Of a stretch of DNA of 37,475 nt, positions 1-35,325 are shown in pieces. Within the stretch, counting starts at the first letter, position 1. Every line of letters starts with the position of its first letter. A program made the translations under genes and the position numbers. Location of the stretch: contig CALHDG010000233.1 in assembly GCA_938023075.1 (NCBI GenBank), forward strand, positions 1 through 37,475, written 5' to 3'. The notes below the pieces were generated by a model. That model searched no databases. It saw only the letters and a program-made list of their open reading frames with translations, and was not told the origin of the DNA. The stretch comes from an uncultured Chitinophagales bacterium (GTDB lineage Bacteria; Bacteroidota; Bacteroidia; Chitinophagales; JAHDHT01).

Positions 1-39
1 ATGGAAAAATTCGTCATTCAAAATTGGGTGTTCGGTGTT

Positions 40-87
40 CGATATTCGATATTTATTGGATGACCATTTAATGAACAACGAATATCG
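40..87. repeat. Short intergenic inverted repeat
   Basis: CGATATTCG at 40-48 is the exact reverse complement of CGAATATCG at 79-87, and the flanking TTCG/CGAA-rich sequence extends the pairing imperfectly. No gene lies in 1-394; this repeat and the structured element at 160-285 are what the stretch holds. Bacteroidota genomes often carry TTCGATATTCG-type intergenic filler, so this is probably a repetitive spacer and not a regulator. Confidence 0.4.
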
Positions 88-159
88 ATTAACGAATAAT
101 GAATGTTGAATTATTTTTAATGTATAAATAAATAACATTCAGTATGCCGAAAGACACTT

Positions 160-285
160 AGATAGAATTGCAGTGGTTATGCTATTTTGCGGTGGGCATT
201 GAAGCGGTGGCAATAGCATTTGAACGGAAAGCGGGGAGCGCCTTGGATGGAAAACCTAATGGTTCGCTTCAAAAAAAATTAAACG
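160..285 (+). repeat. Structured intergenic element, copy E (core plus right arm)
   Basis: Degenerate copy of the repeated element seen complete at 32451-32698. The core hairpin arms are ATGCTATT (179-186) and AATAGCAT (212-219), followed by the conserved GAACGGAAAGCGGGG stretch (222-236) and then the arm motif GGTTCGCTTC before an A-run. The 5' side has lost the usual AGCCCCGAT (here ATAGAATTGCAG), and no terminal inverted repeats remain. Relative to the other copies the inner stem differs by paired changes, so folding is kept. Confidence 0.65.
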
Positions 286-3320: not shown

Positions 3321-3418
3321 ATGGTAAATTTTGTGGCTTGATTTTTTGTTAAAACACCTTTACTCAAATAGAGTTGAGTGTGGATTGTTTAGGTATTAGC
3401 AGAAAATAAATTTACCAT
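3321..3418. repeat. Intergenic inverted repeat downstream of recF
   Basis: ATGGTAAATTT at 3321-3331 is repeated in inverse as AAATTTACCAT at 3408-3418, with a small hairpin ACTCAA/TTGAGT between them. The right end (AGAAAATAAATTTACC) resembles the ends of the element at 6785-6919. It may be a decayed small insertion; no gene is seen in 3307-3560. Confidence 0.35.
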
Positions 3419-3560
3419 TTATGATAAGGTATTTTTTTTGATATACCATTATTTAGGTCTCAACAATTGCGACCTCTACGTTTTGGAAAAACAAGCATAA
3501 ACCCATAAATACATAAATTATCAATTTAGTTAATTAAAATCTCTTACCTTTATCTTATCT

Positions 3561-6675: not shown

Positions 6676-6784
6676 TAATGCATTTTAACGCAAATTTCAT
6701 AAAATTAGTTTAGTATCAATAAATTAGGCTCATATTTATTATTCAAATTATAATTTTTGATTGTTTTTTATAAGTAATGCTACA

Positions 6785-6919
6785 AAAATAAATCTACATT
6801 TCTGTCTTTGCCATTTTTGGATATACTTTGTTGAAAAGCCTCGTCTTAGCACCACTATGCCTTCGTTTTTCTCCTCGTCTATCAAAAAATTGCTTTGACA
6901 TAAAAAGTAGATTTATTTT
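6785..6919. mobile_element. Small MITE-like element with terminal inverted repeats
   Basis: AAAATAAATCTAC (6785-6797) is perfectly inverted at GTAGATTTATTTT (6907-6919), and similarity continues imperfectly inward for roughly 20 more bases on both sides (TGTCTTTGCCATTTTT against TGTCAAAGCAATTTTT). The 135-bp unit has no coding potential. Clear flanking target duplications were not found. It fills most of the 345-bp gap 6676-7020; the rest is AT-rich with no visible gene. Confidence 0.5.
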
Positions 6920-7020
6920 CTCCGCATTCCTAAGTTTGGATGCATTTAGATTTTTCTACCAACCATATGCAAACTAAATAGTGTCTTTATAACTATTGAA
7001 CAATTGAACAAAAAGAGAAC

Positions 7021-9331: not shown

Positions 9332-9350
9332 AGCAAAAAAAGGTAATAGA

Positions 9351-9437
9351 AGCTAGTTTGCCAAGTTCGGTTCTTCATAAGAAGAAAAAACAGCTATAAT
9401 CCGAAACAAAAAATATCAACTACAGTAATAAACTTGA
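9351..9437 (-). repeat. Structured element, solo left arm (copy H)
   Basis: On the minus strand this reads as the left arm of the 250-bp element: CAAGTTTAT, then GTAGTTGATA, then GAAGAACCGAACTT, ending at AAACTAGC exactly where the conserved core would begin. The core and right arm are missing. Such a sharp boundary suggests deletion or recombination at the core, not random decay. Confidence 0.6.
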
Positions 9438-16769: not shown

Positions 16770-16846
16770 GTCCCGCTGTCCTTTCAAATGTTGCGGCTAC
16801 GCTTCAAGCCTTCGCTTCAGGCAACATAACCACTACCATCGGGGCT
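16770..16846 (-). repeat. Structured intergenic element, copy F (core only)
   Basis: Minus-strand copy of the conserved core: AGCCCCGAT at the 5' end, GGACAGCGGGACC at the 3' end, and inner arms ATGTTGC (16821-16827, read on minus) and GCAACAT (16788-16794). The inner pairs differ from copies A, B, C and E but still match each other. The outer GACAAG terminal repeats are absent. Confidence 0.7.
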
Positions 16847-16903
16847 ATTTTGGAGACGGTTGTGGTTCGTGGATGGGGTTTTAGAAATTCAAAATTAATT
16901 TTA

Positions 16904-18772: not shown

Positions 18773-18952
18773 ATGACTAAAAATGAAGTAAATAATATTT
18801 GCTATCGGTGCAAAATAATCAAGGATATTGATACCCTCGCCTCATCCTCGTTTGTAACGAGGATGTGTGAGAAGTGCATTTGCAATGCACTAAAACGTCA
18901 GAGACGTTTTTCTCGTCCGCCCTCGTTACAAACGAGGGCGATGGTTAAATAA
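18773..18952 (+). pseudogene. 59-codon ORF, probably a small gene truncated by REP insertion
   Basis: ATG 18773 directly abuts the preceding TAA, the tight spacing of a translationally coupled gene. The first 22 residues (MTKNEVNNICYRCKIIKDID...) precede the REP array and carry CYRC. The rest is read through the REP hairpins (including a CEKC encoded by the repeat) and stops just before the RAYT leader. The likeliest reading is a small zinc-finger-like gene whose 3' part was replaced when the REP/RAYT module arrived. It could also be a chance ORF. Confidence 0.3.
18843..18940 (+). repeat. REP-like hairpin array upstream of RAYT (copy 1)
   Basis: Four back-to-back perfect hairpins. The first is CATCCTCGTT/AACGAGGATG (18843-18865), the second AGTGCATT/AATGCACT (18873-18891), the third AAAACGTC/GACGTTTT (18892-18910), and the fourth CGCCCTCGTT/AACGAGGGCG (18918-18940). 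Each loop has three bases. The first and last are variants of one palindrome and could also pair with each other. This matches the REP/BIME arrays mobilised or maintained by REP-associated tyrosine transposases. Copies recur at 20133-20230 and 22031-22128. Confidence 0.85.
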
Positions 18953-18974
18953 AATATTTTCCATATATTTAACC
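18943..18974 (+). promoter_or_regulatory. Hairpin covering the RAYT translation start region
   Basis: GGTTAAATA (18943-18951) pairs with TATTTAACC (18966-18974), ending 3 bp before the RAYT ATG at 18978. It would sequester the ribosome-loading region and could limit transposase synthesis. It is retained in truncated copy 2 (near 20233-20264) but not in copy 3. Confidence 0.5.
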
Positions 18975-18977
18975 TTT

Positions 18978-19529
18978 ATGGCAGGTGACAATTATTTTAT
19001 AAAAGATCAATACACGCCCTACTTTTTAACTTGTACAATTATTCGTTGGATAGATGTATTTACCAGAAAAAGCTACAAAGATATTATTGTAGAATCCCTA
19101 AATTATTGTGTACAACACAAAGGTTTAGAACTATATGCTTGGGTAATAATGAGCAATCATATTCATTTAGTCGCAAAGGTGAAACCACCATTAGGGATGT
19201 CTGGCTTTTTACGAGATTTTAAAAAATTCACTTCTAAAAAAATTGTAGCAGCTATTATTGAAGGTCCAGAAAGTCGGCAAGATTGGCTGTTAGATAAATT
19301 TAACTTTGAAGCCAGGCGAACAAGGCGCACCGAAAATTATAAATTCTGGAAAGATGACAACCACGCTATTGATTTAGACCAATACCAAATTGATATGCAA
19401 GAAAAAATTCATTACATCCACAACAATCCGGTTCGTGCTGGCTTAGTCCACTTTCTTGAAGATTACGTTTATAGTAGCGCAGCAGACTATGCCGATAAAG
19501 TAGGCTTAGTTAAAGTGTGTGTGGCTTGA
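18978..19529 (+). CDS. REP-associated tyrosine transposase (RAYT, IS200/IS605-like Y1 family)
   Basis: A 183-residue single-domain Y1 HUH nuclease. The metal-binding HUH is His61-Ile-His63 in SNHIHLV, and the catalytic tyrosine is most likely Tyr146 in HYIHNNPVRAGLV. Also typical are the RDFKKFTSKKI helix, the KFWKDDNHAIDL segment and the YSSAADY C-terminal motif. RAYTs cleave and rejoin single-stranded REP hairpins and are usually present as domesticated single copies beside them. Here the gene directly follows a four-hairpin REP array and a start-proximal hairpin. All motifs are intact, so it is probably active; two broken relatives lie 1.3 and 3.2 kb downstream. Confidence 0.92.
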   Translation: MAGDNYFIKDQYTPYFLTCTIIRWIDVFTRKSYKDIIVESLNYCVQHKGLELYAWVIMSNHIHLVAKVKPPLGMSGFLRDFKKFTSKKIVAAIIEGPESRQDWLLDKFNFEARRTRRTENYKFWKDDNHAIDLDQYQIDMQEKIHYIHNNPVRAGLVHFLEDYVYSSAADYADKVGLVKVCVA

Positions 19530-19559
19530 AACGGGCAGCAAAAGTTGTTTGAAAAAGTT

Positions 19560-19567
19560 TATCTTTG
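19560..19567 (+). promoter_or_regulatory. -7 promoter box of the toxin-antitoxin operon
   Basis: TATCTTTG, an exact TAnnTTTG match, 18 bp before the antitoxin ATG at 19586. Transcription would start close to the ATG, leaving a very short leader. Confidence 0.5.
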
Positions 19568-19585
19568 AAATATTAAAGTAGCCAT

Positions 19586-19837
19586 ATGTCAGTTAAAGAT
19601 GAAATTATAAATCAAATAAACCAAATAGACGACTCCTTAGTTTTAGATGAAATTTTGAGTTTAGTAAAATCAAAATCAAATAGAGAAACGGTTTATCAAT
19701 TTAGTGAAGCAGAAAGAAAATCGGTGGAAGAAGGTTTAGCAGATTTAGATGCCGGCAAATTTTACACGAATGAAGAAGCCAATAAATTAGTTGCCAAATG
19801 GTTAAGCGAACAGTCCGTTGGTCTGAAAGGGCATTAA
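19586..19837 (+). CDS. Antitoxin of a ParE/RelE-type toxin-antitoxin pair
   Basis: An 83-residue protein beginning MSVKDEIINQINQIDDSLVLDEILSLVK, a pattern common in Bacteroidota antitoxins, then QFSEAERKSVEEGLADLDAGKFYTNEEANKLVAKWL. The SVEEGLADLDAGKFYTNEEA segment resembles the toxin-binding C-terminal part of antitoxins paired with RelE/ParE toxins. It should bind and neutralise the toxin encoded directly downstream and repress the shared promoter. The two genes overlap by 40 bp, which couples their translation. Strong context support, moderate family support. Confidence 0.8.
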   Translation: MSVKDEIINQINQIDDSLVLDEILSLVKSKSNRETVYQFSEAERKSVEEGLADLDAGKFYTNEEANKLVAKWLSEQSVGLKGH

Positions 19838-20097
19838 ATGATAAGTTGATGATTTTCAAATATTGGATTGAGCGGAATCAATCTATTGCTTATCCAACAA
19901 AACTTGAAAACCTATTTGACGATGCTTTAGAAACAGTTTCTATTTTTCCATTATCAGGAAGAGCTACTGAAATCCAACATGTTAGAATGGTTATTGTAAA
20001 AAACTATAAGATTGTTTATCGTATTTCAGAAGAACTAATTGAAGTAATAACTGTTTGGGACGGTAGAAGAAATCCATCTGATTTTAGGATAATTTGA
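19798..20097 (+). CDS. ParE/RelE superfamily toxin
   Basis: A 99-residue toxin: VRWSERALNDKLMIFKYWIERN at the N-terminus, then LSGRATEIQHVRMVIVKNYKIVYRISEELIEVITVWDGRRNPSDF. The central VRMVIVKNYKIVYRI strands and the final VWDGRRNP motif are diagnostic of the RelE/ParE fold. Target (ribosome-bound mRNA or gyrase) cannot be decided from sequence. It starts inside the antitoxin gene and appears complete. Immediately downstream begins the second REP array, so the TA pair sits between two REP/RAYT modules. Confidence 0.88.
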   Translation: MVKRTVRWSERALNDKLMIFKYWIERNQSIAYPTKLENLFDDALETVSIFPLSGRATEIQHVRMVIVKNYKIVYRISEELIEVITVWDGRRNPSDFRII

Positions 20098-20132
20098 CGA
20101 AACTTGCATTATCCTTGTTTGCACTCTCGCCT

Positions 20133-20230
20133 CATACTCATTTACAACGAGGATGCTTGAGCAGTGCATTTGCAATGCACTAAAACGTCAGAGACGTTTT
20201 TCTCATCCGCCCTTGTTGCAAACGAGGACG
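20133..20230 (+). repeat. REP-like hairpin array (copy 2, degenerate outer hairpins)
   Basis: Second copy of the four-hairpin array. The two inner hairpins (AGTGCATT/AATGCACT and AAAACGTC/GACGTTTT) are perfect, while the outer ones carry unpaired changes (CATACTCATT against AACGAGGATG; CGCCCTTGTT against AACGAGGACG). Confidence 0.8.
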
Positions 20231-20267
20231 ATGGTTAAATAAGATAATTTTCATATATTTAACCTTT

Positions 20268-20307
20268 ATGGCAGGTGATAATTATTTTATAAAAGATCAA
20301 TACACCC
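20268..20307 (+). pseudogene. 5' remnant of a RAYT transposase gene
   Basis: The first 13 codons of the RAYT gene (MAGDNYFIKDQYT) with its leader hairpin are nearly identical to the copy at 18978. Homology then stops abruptly in the proline codon and runs into the terminator of the next minus-strand gene. A deletion or partial duplication left only the module's left end. Confidence 0.8.
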
Positions 20308-20344
20308 ATATTTGAAGATATAAATATAGGGCAATAAAAAAAAT

Positions 20345-20377
20345 AAAAGACCAAGTAAACTTTATCCTTGGTCTTTT
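20345..20377 (-). terminator. Intrinsic terminator for the 20390-21583 operon
   Basis: AAAAGACCAAG (20345-20355) pairs perfectly with CTTGGTCTTTT (20367-20377). On the minus strand the stem is followed by a T-rich tract, and it sits just after the stop of the 112-residue gene. Confidence 0.8.
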
Positions 20378-20389
20378 ATCTTATAAATT

Positions 20390-20728
20390 TTAATGAAACA
20401 TCACATAATCATAGGTTGGCACATTCCTGATTAATATCTCAAGAAATAGCAAAAAATACATATAACATAGTAGAATTCGGTTATTAAAAAATTTTGTAAA
20501 ATATATAATACAAATTATTATAAATATGATGCTTAAAAGGTGACCGTACGCTAAAATCGCCTCATCTGTCGATCCAGAAAATAACTTATATCTATTTGAT
20601 TCATCAGCATTTGTTGGCCATTTTCCAACTCTATAATATCCACTTATAATAAAAAATATTCTAAATGCATTTATAGCGGTACAATAACCTGCTAATAAAA
20701 AGAAAAATGTATTAACAATTTTTTTCAC
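20390..20728 (-). CDS. Small multi-spanning membrane protein
   Basis: 112 residues, not recognised. It has three or four hydrophobic segments: about 6-30 (NTFFFLLAGYCTAINAFRIFFIISGY), 60-80 (LAYGHLLSIIFIIICIIYF) and 84-102 (NRILLCYMYFLLFLEILI). A polar loop (RVGKWPTNADESNRYKLFSGSTDE) separates the first two. Its ATG overlaps the stop of the upstream lipoprotein gene (ATGA-type, 4-bp overlap), so the two are translationally coupled and may work together in the envelope. A strong terminator follows. Confidence 0.65.
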   Translation of the reverse strand: MKKIVNTFFFLLAGYCTAINAFRIFFIISGYYRVGKWPTNADESNRYKLFSGSTDEAILAYGHLLSIIFIIICIIYFTKFFNNRILLCYMYFLLFLEILIRNVPTYDYVMFH

Positions 20729-21583
20729 CCTTCTCTATCAGATGGCGGGTTATCAAGAATGCAATTAACTCGAATTCCGACCGCATCAAAACGGGTAATA
20801 TCAATCCAAGCATCGTGTTTACAAGTAGTCAAGAACCAAGTTACTGAAATTGACAATTCATGTAGATGCCCTATAAATGTTGAATATTGGCGCGCATCAG
20901 GTACTCTATACCCACCTACCATATCATCCATAATTGCTCGATAGGTGGTGCTACTTGTGTACCAAGTAAATCTATGTCTATTTGGATTATTGTATTGATA
21001 TAAGGTTGGATTCCAAAAATATGAGTTATCACAGTCAACATTAGGCTCTGGATCTTGAATAGAACAATCATAAGCCATTATCTCTTCACTTGCGCATCGG
21101 CTTTGAACATATACAATTGTATTTGGTTCAATGTTGCAAGTGGCTTGAGCATTACATTCTGCTGGCGGCCAATCACAGTTAAGTTTGAAAGAATTTGGAT
21201 GCAGTTTCTTCAATTTATCTAAATAATCAGCTGCAAACTCTTCCTTGCTTTCATGGTCTCCTTCCAAAAAAGAAATATGCTGATCTTCTCGATAATCGTT
21301 AAATAAATCTGCCACAAGTTGAGCAACTGATTCAGATATTAAATTGTGTATCCTTTGTACAAGTAGGTCTTCTCTTTCTTCGGGAGTAAAAAATTCCTCC
21401 ATAAGCGCATCAATATTAAAATTCATTGCTTCAATTGCTTCATCTGTTTCTGTAGTAAATATTTTAATCAATTCTTCTTTCGAATAAATTGGATCTTCTG
21501 ATATCGTTTTACCTACTTTTTGACAAGAGGTAACTGCTAACAAGACGAATAAGGAAATAAGGAAATAATTTAAATTTTTTCAT
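20725..21583 (-). pseudogene. Putative lipoprotein gene with a 1-base frameshift at its start
   Basis: About 285 residues if repaired. The open frame encodes LLAVTSCQKVGKT, a textbook lipobox, but has no ATG ahead of it. In the same frame upstream the sequence reads KNLNYFLISLFV, a perfect signal core. An ATG at 21583 is exactly one base out of register, the discrepancy being a run of six A (plus-strand T 21575-21580) where five would restore MKNLNYFL. Either a real frameshift, a sequencing error or slippage explains this. The mature protein has a Glu/Asp-rich helical N-half and a Cys-rich middle (CDWPPAECNAQATC, SRCASEE, YDCSIQ). Its C-terminal half is strand-rich and ends in VGIRVNCILDNPPSDREG. 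Function unknown; coupled to the small membrane protein. Confidence 0.7.
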
Positions 21584-21695
21584 GAATTTAAATTTTAAGG
21601 TTAAAAATTGTTGTATTTGATATTTTGAGTATCAAATTGCTATTATTTATAAAGATTTATCCAATCACAAAAAGGTTGCATTAATTATACATTTT

Positions 21696-21996
21696 TACTA
21701 GCGATGCGTAGTAACTGTTTAATATTCAGTTAGTTGCGGAACAAGCTGTTTGAATTTTGTAAATTTAATGCATAAAATATTGATTAACAATAATCTATAA
21801 ATAGTGTTGAACAATTAATTTTCGTAGTATAATTTATCCCAAATTAAGCCAATATTCCGTACCAATGCACTGAAATTGAAAATTAAGACACTCATTTTAA
21901 ATTCATTTTCTGAAGTCGAAAAATCAAAAAATCTCCACAAACAATTGTAAATCAAACAATTATAACTATTTTTGATTTCTTAACGCATCGCTAGTG
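21696..21996. mobile_element. 301-bp MITE-like element with 13-bp inverted repeats and 9-bp target duplication
   Basis: ACTAGCGATGCGT (21697-21709) is perfectly inverted at 21983-21995. The element is flanked by identical 9-bp direct repeats ATACATTTT at 21687-21695 and 21997-22005. The interior is AT-rich without coding capacity. This is the full signature of a non-autonomous transposon. A 9-bp duplication is used by several IS families (for example some IS4 and IS1 members), so the parent family cannot be named here. Confidence 0.88.
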
Positions 21997-22030
21997 ATAC
22001 ATTTTAAATAAAGTTAACAGCCCCTCGCCT

Positions 22031-22128
22031 CGTCCTCGTTTGTAACGAGGATGTGTGAGCAGTGCATTTGCAATGCACTAAAACGTCAGAAACGTTTTTC
22101 TCGCCCGCCCTCGTTGCAAACGAGGGCG
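22031..22128 (+). repeat. REP-like hairpin array (copy 3)
   Basis: Third four-hairpin array, with the same order and spacing as copy 1. The outer hairpins are CGTCCTCGTT/AACGAGGATG and CGCCCTCGTT/AACGAGGGCG with a GCA loop; the third hairpin has one mismatch. A broken RAYT gene follows. Confidence 0.83.
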
Positions 22129-22164
22129 ATTGATTAGTTAGTTATATTTTCTTACTTTTAGGCT

Positions 22165-22639
22165 ATGGCAGGCGATAATGATTTCATTACCAATCAATAC
22201 ACACCTTACTTTTTTAATTGGTAACCGTTATTCGTTGGATAGATGTGTTTACCAGAAAAAGCTACAAAGATATTATTGTAGAATCTCTAAATTATTGTGT
22301 GCAACATAAAGGTTTGGAATTGTATGCTTGGGTAATTATGAGCAATCACATTCATTTAGTGGCTATGTAGTCAGTCAAGTTCATACTGTCGGTTACTTTG
22401 GCAAAATTAGAACGATTACTTCGTTGGAGAACATCAACCATAGCTTTGGCTATGCTTGATAACCTCCGCCTCGTACTCCTCCAAATTTTACTTAAATTAA
22501 TCCGACACCATCAACTTGACAGACTACTAAGGTAAATCCCCCATTGGGAATGTCTGGCTTTTTACGTGATTTTAAAAAATTCACTTCTAAAAAAATTGTA
22601 GCAGCTATTATTGAAGGTCCAGAAAGTCGTCAAGATTGG
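22165..22639 (+). pseudogene. RAYT transposase pseudogene, frameshifted, interrupted and 3'-truncated
   Basis: It starts MAGDNDFITNQYTPYF like the intact gene at 18978, then shifts frame near codon 17 (extra bases in TTTTTTTAATTGG). It continues recognisably through RWIDVFTRKSYKDIIVES and the MSNHIHLVA HUH region. A MITE splits it at 22364-22529. After that it resumes with KVNPPLGMSGFLRDFKKFTSKKI and ends abruptly at QDW (22639), so the catalytic tyrosine half is lost. It shows that RAYT modules have been duplicated locally and then decayed. Confidence 0.9.
22366..22527. mobile_element. 162-bp MITE with TA target duplication (IS630/Tc1-mariner-like)
   Basis: Terminal repeats of 26 bp (22367-22392 against 22502-22527) match at 22 positions, beginning GTAGTC and reaching TGTCGG. 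The flanks are TA at 22364-22365 and TA at 22528-22529. Removing the element plus one TA restores GTG GCT AAG GTA AAT, in line with the intact RAYT codons GTC GCA AAG GTG AAA, so the boundaries are secure. The interior is non-coding, with a CATAGCTTTGGCTATG hairpin. TA duplication points to an IS630-superfamily transposase acting in trans. Confidence 0.88.
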
Positions 22640-22679
22640 TTCTATAATAGCAATTAATAAACGGATTTAGTATATTTGA

Positions 22680-22916
22680 ATGGTGGAAATGAAATTAAAA
22701 ATTGATTACAGTAATTTATTAGATTTAATCAATCAATTACCCAATCATTTAAAAGAAAAATTGAAGGCTGATTTGATAGATACACCTACTCAACCTGTCA
22801 AAAATGCAAAAGAAAATCTGGCTGAACTCATTAAAGAAATGCGAACTAAACCTATGTTTACCGAAATTGAAGATCCGGTGAAATGGCAAAAAAACCTGCG
22901 CAATGAATGGCAATAA
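22680..22916 (+). CDS. Antitoxin-like protein, orphaned from a PIN toxin
   Basis: 78 residues: KIDYSNLLDLINQLPNHLKEKLKADL, then a linker with Pro/Thr, then ENLAELIKEMRTKPMFTEIEDPVKWQKNLRNEW. The closing DPV.WQ..LR.EW is typical of Bacteroidota antitoxins encoded just before PIN-domain toxins. A second ATG nine bases in (MKLKIDY) may be the real start. TATATTTG at 22671-22678 matches the -7 consensus. The stop overlaps the start of a PIN toxin fragment, as in functional operons, but that toxin is broken. Confidence 0.65.
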   Translation: MVEMKLKIDYSNLLDLINQLPNHLKEKLKADLIDTPTQPVKNAKENLAELIKEMRTKPMFTEIEDPVKWQKNLRNEWQ

Positions 22917-26755: not shown

Positions 26756-27008
26756 GACAAGTTTATCTATACCATAAAGTAGTTGACACTAAAGCATTAA
26801 TATTTTTTGAAGCAAAACTTTTGAGCATTATAATAACTTTGGGTCCCGCTTTCCGCTCAAATGCAATTGCTTGGCTGCAAATGCTGCGCTGCAAAATTGC
26901 ATAACCGCTGCAATCGGGGCTAGTTTGCAAACTTCGGTTCTTCGTAGAAAGAAAAAAAACCGTGACAATTGAAAACAAGAAAGTATCAAGCACTTTGATC
27001 AACTTGTC
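26756..27008 (-). mobile_element. Structured TIR element, complete copy C
   Basis: Ends GACAAGTTTATC (26756) and GATCAACTTGTC (27008), the terminal inverted repeats of the family. The core on the minus strand runs TAGCCCCGATTGCAGCGG to GAGCGGAAAGCGGGAC (26843-26922), with inner arms ATGCAATT (26895-26902, minus) and AATTGCAT (26861-26868). The inner stem differs from copy B by compensated changes. The flanks (ATTTTGA and ATTTTAA) could be a decayed target duplication. It lies between divergent genes, so it is not simply a terminator; the rest of 26544-27160 is AT-rich without a gene. Confidence 0.82.
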
Positions 27009-28324: not shown

Positions 28325-28384
28325 TTTTTTTTGCGTTAAAATAAATAGAAGCGAAACCGATAAACACGCAGAAACTGTTGGTCC

Positions 28385-28450
28385 CGCTTTATGCTCAAAT
28401 ACCATTTTGCAAAACGTTTCAATGTCTGGCTAAAATGGAATAACAAGCTA
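28385..28450 (-). repeat. Structured element, degenerate core (copy G)
   Basis: On the minus strand this reads CATTTTAG, then GCAAAATGGTATTTGAGCATAAAGCGGGACC, matching the 3' half of the core. The 5' AGCCCC half has been lost. It lies 110 bp from complete copy A, so two elements landed in one convergent gap (28325-28841). Confidence 0.55.
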
Positions 28451-28560: not shown

Positions 28561-28811
28561 GACAAGTTTATCAAAGTAGTTGATACTTTTCTGTTTTTGA
28601 TTGTTGGTGTTTTTTGTCTTGCTACGAAGCACCAACTTTTTTAAACTAGCCCCGATTGCAGCGGTTATGCCATTTCGAGCGGCTTTGAAGCGCAGGCAAA
28701 TGGCATTTGAGCGGAAAGCGGGACCACCGTTATTATCATGCTGCAAGGTTTCGCTTCAAAAAAAAATTATTGCAATAGTTTCAACTACTTTGTTGTTTAA
28801 ATAGACTTGTC
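28561..28811 (+). mobile_element. Structured TIR element, complete copy A
   Basis: 251 bp, starting GACAAGTTTATCAAAGTAG and ending in the inverse ...ACTTGTC. The core at 28648-28724 has outer arms CCCG and CGGG and inner arms ATGCCATTT (28667-28675) and AAATGGCAT (28698-28706). A 7-base insertion is present in the right terminal repeat only, as in copy B, giving the element a fixed polarity relative to the core. Located between convergent genes. Confidence 0.85.
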
Positions 28812-32402: not shown

Positions 32403-32450
32403 AATTTGTTTAAAATGAAATAACAAATTCAACTTTTCTGGTAAAAAATC

Positions 32451-32698
32451 GGACAAGTTTATCAAAGTGGTTGATACTTTCTTGTTTTGAATTGTCATTG
32501 TTTTTTTCTTTCAACGAAGCACCGAAGTTTTTAATATAGCCCCGATTGCAGCGGTTATGCCATTTTGAGTGGCTTTTGCAGCGTTGGCAAATGGCATTTG
32601 AGCGGAAAGCGGGACGGGTGTTCTTATAAAGCCAAATAGTTTCGCTTCAAAAAATATTAAAAAAGTGTGAACTACTTTCTTGTTTAGATAAACTTGTC
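32451..32698 (+). mobile_element. Structured TIR element, complete copy B, with 8-bp target duplication
   Basis: Perfect 12-bp terminal repeats GACAAGTTTATC (32452-32463) and GATAAACTTGTC (32687-32698). Identical octamers AAAAAATC flank it at 32443-32450 and 32699-32706, a direct-repeat signature of transposition. The core at 32538-32615 has outer arms CCCG and CGGG and inner arms ATGCCATTT (32557-32565) and AAATGGCAT (32589-32597). The right duplication covers part of the bestrophin stop codon. No transposase is encoded, so movement would need a partner elsewhere. Confidence 0.88.
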
Positions 32699-32704
32699 AA
32701 AAAA

Positions 32705-33742
32705 TCACATCAATACTCCATTAATAGGCTCAATATTAGGCGGCAAGTCGGTTTCCCCTAACATTTCACGTAAATCTATTTCTATTACCCGGCAAAGCGA
32801 TAGCATCGGAATATCATTACCTAATCCTTCAAACGGATTTTCTGAATAATCGCCCACTAACTCCATCATTAAGTAAACCCAAGCTACCAAAACAGTAAAG
32901 GGAATAGCTAACCAAACTAACGATTCATTCAATTTATGAAACTCGTTTGCCATACCAAAGGGCAACAATAAAATAAAGATGCCAATAAAAATAATACTGG
33001 TGCTACCATATTGACGAGGCAAGGGAAATTTCTTAATCCGCTCACATTTGCCTTGATGAATATAAAAATCATTTAAAATACTTTGCAATTCCATGTGCCG
33101 GAAATCATCTATCGTATTTTCATCTTTTATTTGTGCCAATTCAATCGATTGCTCATTGATAATTTGAGTAGCAGTATTTTTATAATTGATCAATCGGTCA
33201 TACTCACCTGCTGGTAAAAAATTTTTCAATTCTACTTCGGTTACCGTATCTTTGTATAAGCCCGTACCAAACTCCTCCTGTCTTTTTTGCGCCTGTTTTG
33301 CAACATGCCTGCCTTGGTTAATATGCTCCCAAGTAGTAGGTATCAATAGTTGGTTTCGCAAAGCATACAACCAACCAATGTGCCGGTAAATTAAACGTTG
33401 CCTTAGTTGCTGAAGTTCAATATCCGTTAATCGTTTCTCTCTAAAGTAATTGCCGGTAAAAGCCAATACCGTGCTACCCCAAGCTCTGCTGCTATTTACA
33501 ATGGCTCCCCAAATTTTACGCGCTTCCCAAAGCCGGTCGTAAGCTTGGTTATTTTTAAAACCAATATAAAAAGCAACAGCCGTACCTATAACAGAAATAG
33601 GTAGCCAAGGCACGGCAAGCCATGTCCAATGCGTTAACTCATAAAGGCAAGTTACCGCAGTTGCCCATATGGTAAGCCATAATATATGTCGTCCTGTAAA
33701 TTTTATAACATTCCAAAACCCAAAATTCTTCTCTATATACAT
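32705..33742 (-). CDS. Bestrophin-family anion channel
   Basis: 345 residues, the usual size of bacterial bestrophins (RFP-TM family), which form pentameric channels. The diagnostic block FKNNQAYDRLWEARKIWGAIVN follows the second membrane segment (about 64-85). Membrane segments are at about 17-35 (GRHILWLTIWATAVTCLYE), 42-63, 245-265 (SIIFIGIFILLLPFGMA) and 274-295. The C-terminal NPFEGLGNDIPMLSLCRVIEIDLREMLGE is also a family hallmark. Bacterial members are reported to pass cations or anions; plant and algal ones carry chloride and bicarbonate. It lies 15 bp downstream of a beta-carbonic anhydrase gene, which suggests bicarbonate transport here. Its stop overlaps the target duplication of copy B. 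Confidence 0.92.
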   Translation of the reverse strand: MYIEKNFGFWNVIKFTGRHILWLTIWATAVTCLYELTHWTWLAVPWLPISVIGTAVAFYIGFKNNQAYDRLWEARKIWGAIVNSSRAWGSTVLAFTGNYFREKRLTDIELQQLRQRLIYRHIGWLYALRNQLLIPTTWEHINQGRHVAKQAQKRQEEFGTGLYKDTVTEVELKNFLPAGEYDRLINYKNTATQIINEQSIELAQIKDENTIDDFRHMELQSILNDFYIHQGKCERIKKFPLPRQYGSTSIIFIGIFILLLPFGMANEFHKLNESLVWLAIPFTVLVAWVYLMMELVGDYSENPFEGLGNDIPMLSLCRVIEIDLREMLGETDLPPNIEPINGVLM

Positions 33743-35103: not shown

Positions 35104-35325
35104 GCCAAACTACACACCAAAATATTTAAAATTTTTAGAAGCGAAAGTTTTGGGATATTTACAAACGGGCTCCCTGCTTTCCGTTCAAATGCTGCAGCTC
35201 TGCGACAAAATTGCAACGCTTCAGGCAGCATAACCACTGCAATCAGGGCTAGTCTTCCAAGTTCGCCCCTCTTCAAAAACGAAAATGATAGCAAAGCATC
35301 AAATCTCCCAACCCTAACTTGCAAA
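35104..35325 (-). repeat. Structured element, eroded copy D
   Basis: Minus-strand copy with a recognisable core (35170-35251). The outer pairs have changed together to AGCCCTG and CAGGG, and the inner arms are ATGCTGC (35225-35231, minus) and GCAGCAT (35189-35195). Both halves stay complementary. The left arm (GAAGAGGGGCGAACTTGGAAGAC on minus) survives and ends near CAAGTT, but the terminal repeats are degraded. Confidence 0.72.

Follow-up and report, generated by a model that had tools for sequence, protein, structure and literature searches.

Flavo-1-like hairpins with covarying stems, many of them carried by a mini-transposon, in an uncultured Chitinophagales genome

Repeated hairpins and their carrier in the window

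The window analysed here is the whole stretch of 37,475 nucleotides from one contig of an uncultured Chitinophagales bacterium, and it contains copies of an intergenic hairpin whose cores and carrier units are collected in Table 1. A sequence-only reading had listed six comparable cores, and all six were found, although one of them, core E (earlier placed at 160-237), proved to be split and to lack the 5' arm of its outer stem. For cores A, B, C, D and F, both stems were reproduced as listed, including the CCTG/CAGG variant in D. Core E keeps the inner stem ATGCTATT/AATAGCAT, and since an insert has removed the outer 5' arm it provides no evidence for the outer stem. The same insert recurs in two further genomic copies (at C272 and in L145), with window positions 1-235 being 87% identical to the split copy at G000:C272 and matching L145 in pieces of 92% and 82%. 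The splitting of core E, and the location of three of the six cores inside a mini-transposon of the MITE type, go beyond the earlier reading. Terminal inverted repeats (TIRs) were looked for and not found around cores D and F, which both fall in the TIR-less class.

Table 1. Repeat features of the window, with strand and supporting evidence
Feature	Position	Strand	Evidence
Insert splitting core E, right part	1..167	+	remainder past contig end
Core E remnant (inner stem and 3' arm only)	168..237	+	alignment to other split copies
Flavo-1-like core F	16771..16847	-	inner stem ATGTTGC/GCAACAT; RF01705 31.0 bits, E 0.0081
MITE copy C	26756..27008	-	TIR pair; flanking 8-mers TATTTTGA/AATTTTAA agree at 6/8
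Flavo-1-like core C	26844..26922	-	inner stem ATGCAATT/AATTGCAT; RF01705 38.9 bits, E 5.4e-5
Decayed fragment (3' half) of copy A's repeat unit	28348..28407	-	inverted repeat I5; adjoins copy A
MITE copy A	28561..28811	+	TIR pair; flanking 8-mers AGATATTT/AAAGATTT agree at 6/8
Flavo-1-like core A	28647..28723	+	RF01705 39.4 bits, E 4e-5
MITE copy B, 247-bp unit with core B	32452..32698	+	TIR GACAAGTTTATC (32452-32463) / GATAAACTTGTC (32687-32698)
Flavo-1-like core B (main finding)	32537..32614	+	RF01705 39.2 bits, E 4.4e-5; pairs and G.A mismatches
Flavo-1-like core D	35172..35251	-	outer stem CCTG/CAGG; RF01705 30.9 bits, E 0.0084

The carrier units of cores A, B and C measure 247-253 bp, starting with GACAAGTTTATC and ending with its inverse. 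Copy B has AAAAAATC on both flanks (32443-32450 and 32699-32706), with one extra G at the left, and the imperfect duplications of the three window copies fit older insertions. Across the genome, the 12-bp terminal repeat GACAAGTTTATC occurs 129 times, compared with 2 occurrences of its reversed control. In 1.41 Mb, we identified 43 distinct TIR pairs shorter than 420 bp. The majority span 243-255 bp, and the target duplications at their borders are of 8 bp and essentially no other length: nine are exact where 0.21 would be expected, and 17 reach at least 7/8 identity against an expectation of 0.77, with none of 20,000 shuffles attaining either count. When the flanks were joined across an element, uninterrupted copies of the surrounding repeat were recovered as empty sites for two elements, the core-bearing L138:2512-2759 (L144, L053 and L049) and L058:1695-1988, which has the same ends and another cargo (L067, L131 and L108). 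A further candidate empty site, L150, was dropped, being an internal deletion in which both element ends remain. With TIRs at both ends of a short non-coding unit, a duplication of fixed length and empty sites, the roughly 250-bp unit that carries many of the cores here is a MITE with 12-bp TIRs and 8-bp target duplications.

The MITEs described from other Bacteroidota (Porphyromonas gingivalis, PMC4596501; Cardinium, PMC9769881) are likewise short, non-coding, dispersed and bounded by TIRs, and are presumably mobilised in trans; compared by description, the present family differs in its GACAAGTTTATC ends and its covarying Flavo-1 cargo. When TIR pairs of up to 5 kb were examined in the 1.41 Mb, no autonomous element or transposase with GACAAGTTTATC ends was found, and the genome's one IS1595-type and one ISL3-type transposase genes are without these terminal repeats. 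The MITE terminal repeat was not found in the 20 relatives searched, and in a wide genome collection the long TIR is common to only three MAGs, two of them Saprospiraceae.

Several other repeats accompany these units. The decayed fragment next to copy A is 73% complementary to 28698-28757, and a lone, coreless fragment resembling the MITE 5' flank lies on the minus strand at 9345-9390. Three elements with GACAAGTTTATC ends (L058:1695-1988, L133:18040-18315 and L070:14667-14869) have quite different interiors, so that these ends bound several cargoes; one such different-cargo element has an exact 8-bp duplication as well as empty sites. A palindromic repeat family, AGTAATGCTACAAAAATAAATCTAC, occurs in the window at 3389-3438 and 6773-6931 and also at L036:7421-7794, and one of its copies has inserted into the right end of a MITE.

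Similarity to Flavo-1 and its distribution

Flavo-1 (RF01705), typed by Rfam as a small RNA, has been a candidate structured RNA without a function since 2010 (Weinberg et al. 2010, PMC2864571). At curated thresholds, no Rfam family reaches its cut-off in the window. In a permissive search, the five best window matches are five of the cores, all to RF01705, with 30.9-39.4 bits (E 4e-5 to 8e-3) against a gathering score of 42 bits; they fall just under the cut-off because their inner stem and loop differ. The same genome holds at least 146 sites matching RF01705, at least 72 of which reach 42 bits, the best among those listed scoring 65.9 bits. The long inner-stem type seen in the window also exceeds the cut-off elsewhere in the genome, for example at C216:38499 (45.9 bits). 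These matches bear out the earlier guess of Flavo-1.

At E 1e-4, matches were detected in 37 of 247 genomes sampled from the window's phylum and in none of 14 control genomes. In a second genus, which belongs to the window's class (g34, presumably Flavobacterium), each of the listed genomes has at least 18 matches. Some relatives within the order have distant forms with the same loops and an outer stem of GGG/CCC, AGG/CCT or AGAG/CTCT. With covarying stems, conserved internal loops and a distribution in Bacteroidota, the repeated hairpin is, as judged from its sequence and predicted structure, a member of the Flavo-1 family. It agrees with the published description (PMC2864571) in core sequence, stems, internal loops, phylum, intergenic position and multiple copies, and differs in that many copies here lie within a MITE and in that the repeated unit extends past the 76-nt model; the Flavo-1 literature that we found describes no association with transposons. 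We have high confidence in these two steps, the assignment to Flavo-1 and the MITE as its vehicle. Flavo-1 inside a mini-transposon points to a way in which families of this kind are dispersed.

Two variants were observed alongside. In another genome of the same family (G001, L221-L225), a relative of Flavo-1, some 148 nt long, has outer stems resembling GGG/CCC or GCG/CGC and, close to the apex, another conserved motif, GAAGCGACCGGCGGAAGC. At L039:11743 and L040:5282, the core 3' arm is broken by a stretch resembling AGCCCAAGAAGTATCGGGGTGCACGGAAAGC.

Covariation of the stems and conservation of the loops

A census of 183 cores, taken from 1.41 Mb of the 6.1 Mb genome (23%) and picked towards Flavo-1 matches, shows Watson-Crick pairing in 95-100% of cores at nearly all structural pairs, many of which take two or three pair types. 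Set within these stems are the mismatches A8.G, G11.A, A13.G and G16.A, present in 183, 183, 181 and 179 of the 183 cores, respectively. Because the position between two of the mismatches (12-4) varies freely and without covariation, G N A facing G R A is the best description of the loop. A tree of 151 genomic copies was built from the core and 60-nt flanks; on it, both sides of a structural pair change along one branch in 109 instances, against 21.8 under branch-weighted permutation. When 488 column pairs were tested, structural pairs of the hairpin took all ten of the top scores. A more stringent null, simulated on the tree as R-scape does and low in power with so few columns, leaves two pairs at E<0.05, both of them structural. 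Single-sequence folding energies of the cores are no more than modest (z -0.2 to -2.1), so the fold is supported by comparison and not by thermodynamics.

The sequence-only reading had observed by eye that both arms change while pairing persists, and had taken this as a sign that the folded form matters. The first point holds on the scale of the census and the tree, where the covariation is significant, and the pairing, the tree-controlled covariation and one syntenic locus in 13 species together indicate that the folded form is maintained. The predicted hairpin is thus preserved by paired changes: its stems appear free to change provided that pairing holds, and its internal loops hardly change.

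The syntenic locus is one intergenic site between the same two genes in g34, and 13 species carry the element there. Pair 6-10 is T-A in eight species, A-T in two, C-G in two and G-C in one, and three forms are seen at pair 10-6. On the flanking-gene tree, paired changes share a branch ten times, where 3.0 would be expected and the highest count among 3,000 permutations is 8. The arms could have appeared to covary simply because the copies descend from a few distinct ancestors, a concern raised at the outset; the changes seen on many branches of the genomic tree and those in place at the g34 site rule this out. The syntenic copies could in principle have been replaced through gene conversion from other copies, but close g34 species have the same inner stem or differ slightly, as vertical descent predicts. 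Compensatory evolution of one syntenic copy makes a strong case for selection on the fold after insertion.

Cores that lack recognisable terminal repeats make up 70 of the 149 of the long type. Their mean identity to the consensus is 91%, yet 98% of pairs are kept, and their common unit runs about 40 nt beyond the core, to GTTTCGCTTC. Such copies either were never within a MITE or lost their ends through decay while the hairpin stayed, and since it holds under both origins, the hairpin is what is kept.

These copies bear on two accounts that dispense with selection on the inserted hairpin. Template switching from one arm of a quasi-palindrome to the other would generate paired changes mechanically, in keeping with the rarity of mismatched intermediates (about 2% of outer-pair cells) and with both-side changes often occurring on one branch; the same process should, however, repair the four G.A mismatches, which persist through nearly the whole census and in every one of the 70 long-type copies without TIRs, and we regard such self-correction as improbable. 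A purely selfish MITE, whose hairpin serves transposition only and whose copies decay neutrally once inserted, would explain the clear anatomy with its 8-bp duplications and empty sites. Against it, the TIR-less copies are still paired, the 13 syntenic g34 copies stay paired in place and the g34 copies read are without GACAAGTTTATC-type terminal repeats, leaving this explanation with a similarly small chance of being correct.

Level at which the hairpin may act

Symmetric internal loops rich in G.A are typical of structured RNA. Of the two strands, the one with the G.A mismatches is the likely folder, since its complement would set C against T. Single-sequence folding separated neither RNA from DNA nor the core strand from its opposite.

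If the element worked at the RNA level, the core would be transcribed alone or in mRNA leaders or trailers, and the RNA hairpin would bind a protein or alter mRNA stability. Its small-RNA classification in Rfam, the pattern of covariation and internal loops such as RNA often has all speak for such a role. A functional RNA is also expected to tolerate G.U above A.C on the folding strand; on the core strand, however, G.T was counted 19 times and A.C 13 times (p 0.38), in a test that, for cores of the short type, omits the inner stem, where a conserved bulge shifts the register (77 apparent A.C). With so few wobbles counted, and some of them not independent of one another, the absent G.U preference is weak evidence against RNA. 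An autonomous small RNA with its own promoter is unsupported, the Bacteroidota -7 box (TAnnTTTG) showing no enrichment and occurring within 100 nt upstream in 0 of 49 g34 copies. An intrinsic terminator was rejected, T-runs directly after the hairpin being few on either strand (28 of 183 on the core strand and 11 of 183 on the opposite strand; in g34, 1 and 4 of 49). Where the flanking genes are in tandem, with gene contexts taken from a simple ORF caller, the core strand is antisense to them more often than sense (67 versus 39, p 0.008). In the transcriptome of F. psychrophilum, some Flavo-1 matches coincide with 5' transcribed regions, as an RNA-level role would have it, but matches lie sense or antisense to transcribed regions and often outside them, with no consistent orientation or transcription (PMC9723704). 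The absent promoter and terminator signatures, wobble bias and sense-strand bias, each an indirect sign, weaken a simple RNA-gene reading; an RNA-level role is possible but somewhat doubtful, and a DNA-level role is slightly more likely. These observations caution against assuming that any intergenic repeat with covariation must be an RNA gene.

We therefore favour, tentatively, an explanation in which a maintained Flavo-1 fold is carried by a MITE and its protein-recognised strand has a role at the DNA level, a combination that we judge to have close to an even chance of being right as a whole. A MITE would have captured a pre-existing Flavo-1 unit and multiplied its copies, with a transposase supplied in trans. 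In what is the least certain step, the strand with the G.A mismatches would fold and a host protein would recognise its loops, for which reason the hairpin would be retained; at the DNA level, the hairpin could form in an exposed single strand or as a cruciform. A wider proposal seems to us unlikely, namely that Flavo-1 is no family of RNA genes at all and consists of dispersed hairpin sites in DNA, whose folded single strand with invariant G.A loops is recognised by a Bacteroidota protein; such sites would stay at fixed intergenic positions over long periods and be seeded to new ones by transposons that captured them.

The hairpins resemble REP elements and their RAYT transposases (PMC2817692) in being palindromic, intergenic and present in more than 100 copies, and the window itself encodes a Y1 transposase with hairpins of its own; the Flavo-1 units differ in being larger and in having internal loops. 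Mobilisation of the RAYT/REP kind is disfavoured because several Flavo-1-rich genomes are without a detectable Y1 transposase: none was detected in G103, G157, G221 and G237, with at least 18 Flavo-1 copies each, or in G049, with 6.

The Y1 (RAYT-type) transposase gene lies at 18978-19529 of the window (Pfam PF01797, E 1.7e-8) and is flanked by CCTCGTTTGTAACGAGG hairpins, with more copies of that repeat at 20123 and 22021 (region 18833-22700). Elsewhere in the genome, six cores (L043:15307, L045:7142, L116:7471, L144, L147:1227 and L031) lie within 150 nt of a RAYT-type hairpin located 5' of the core, and one such hairpin was seen on the 3' side; about 0.002 would be expected per core. This suggests that a Flavo-1 core and a RAYT-type hairpin form composite modules.
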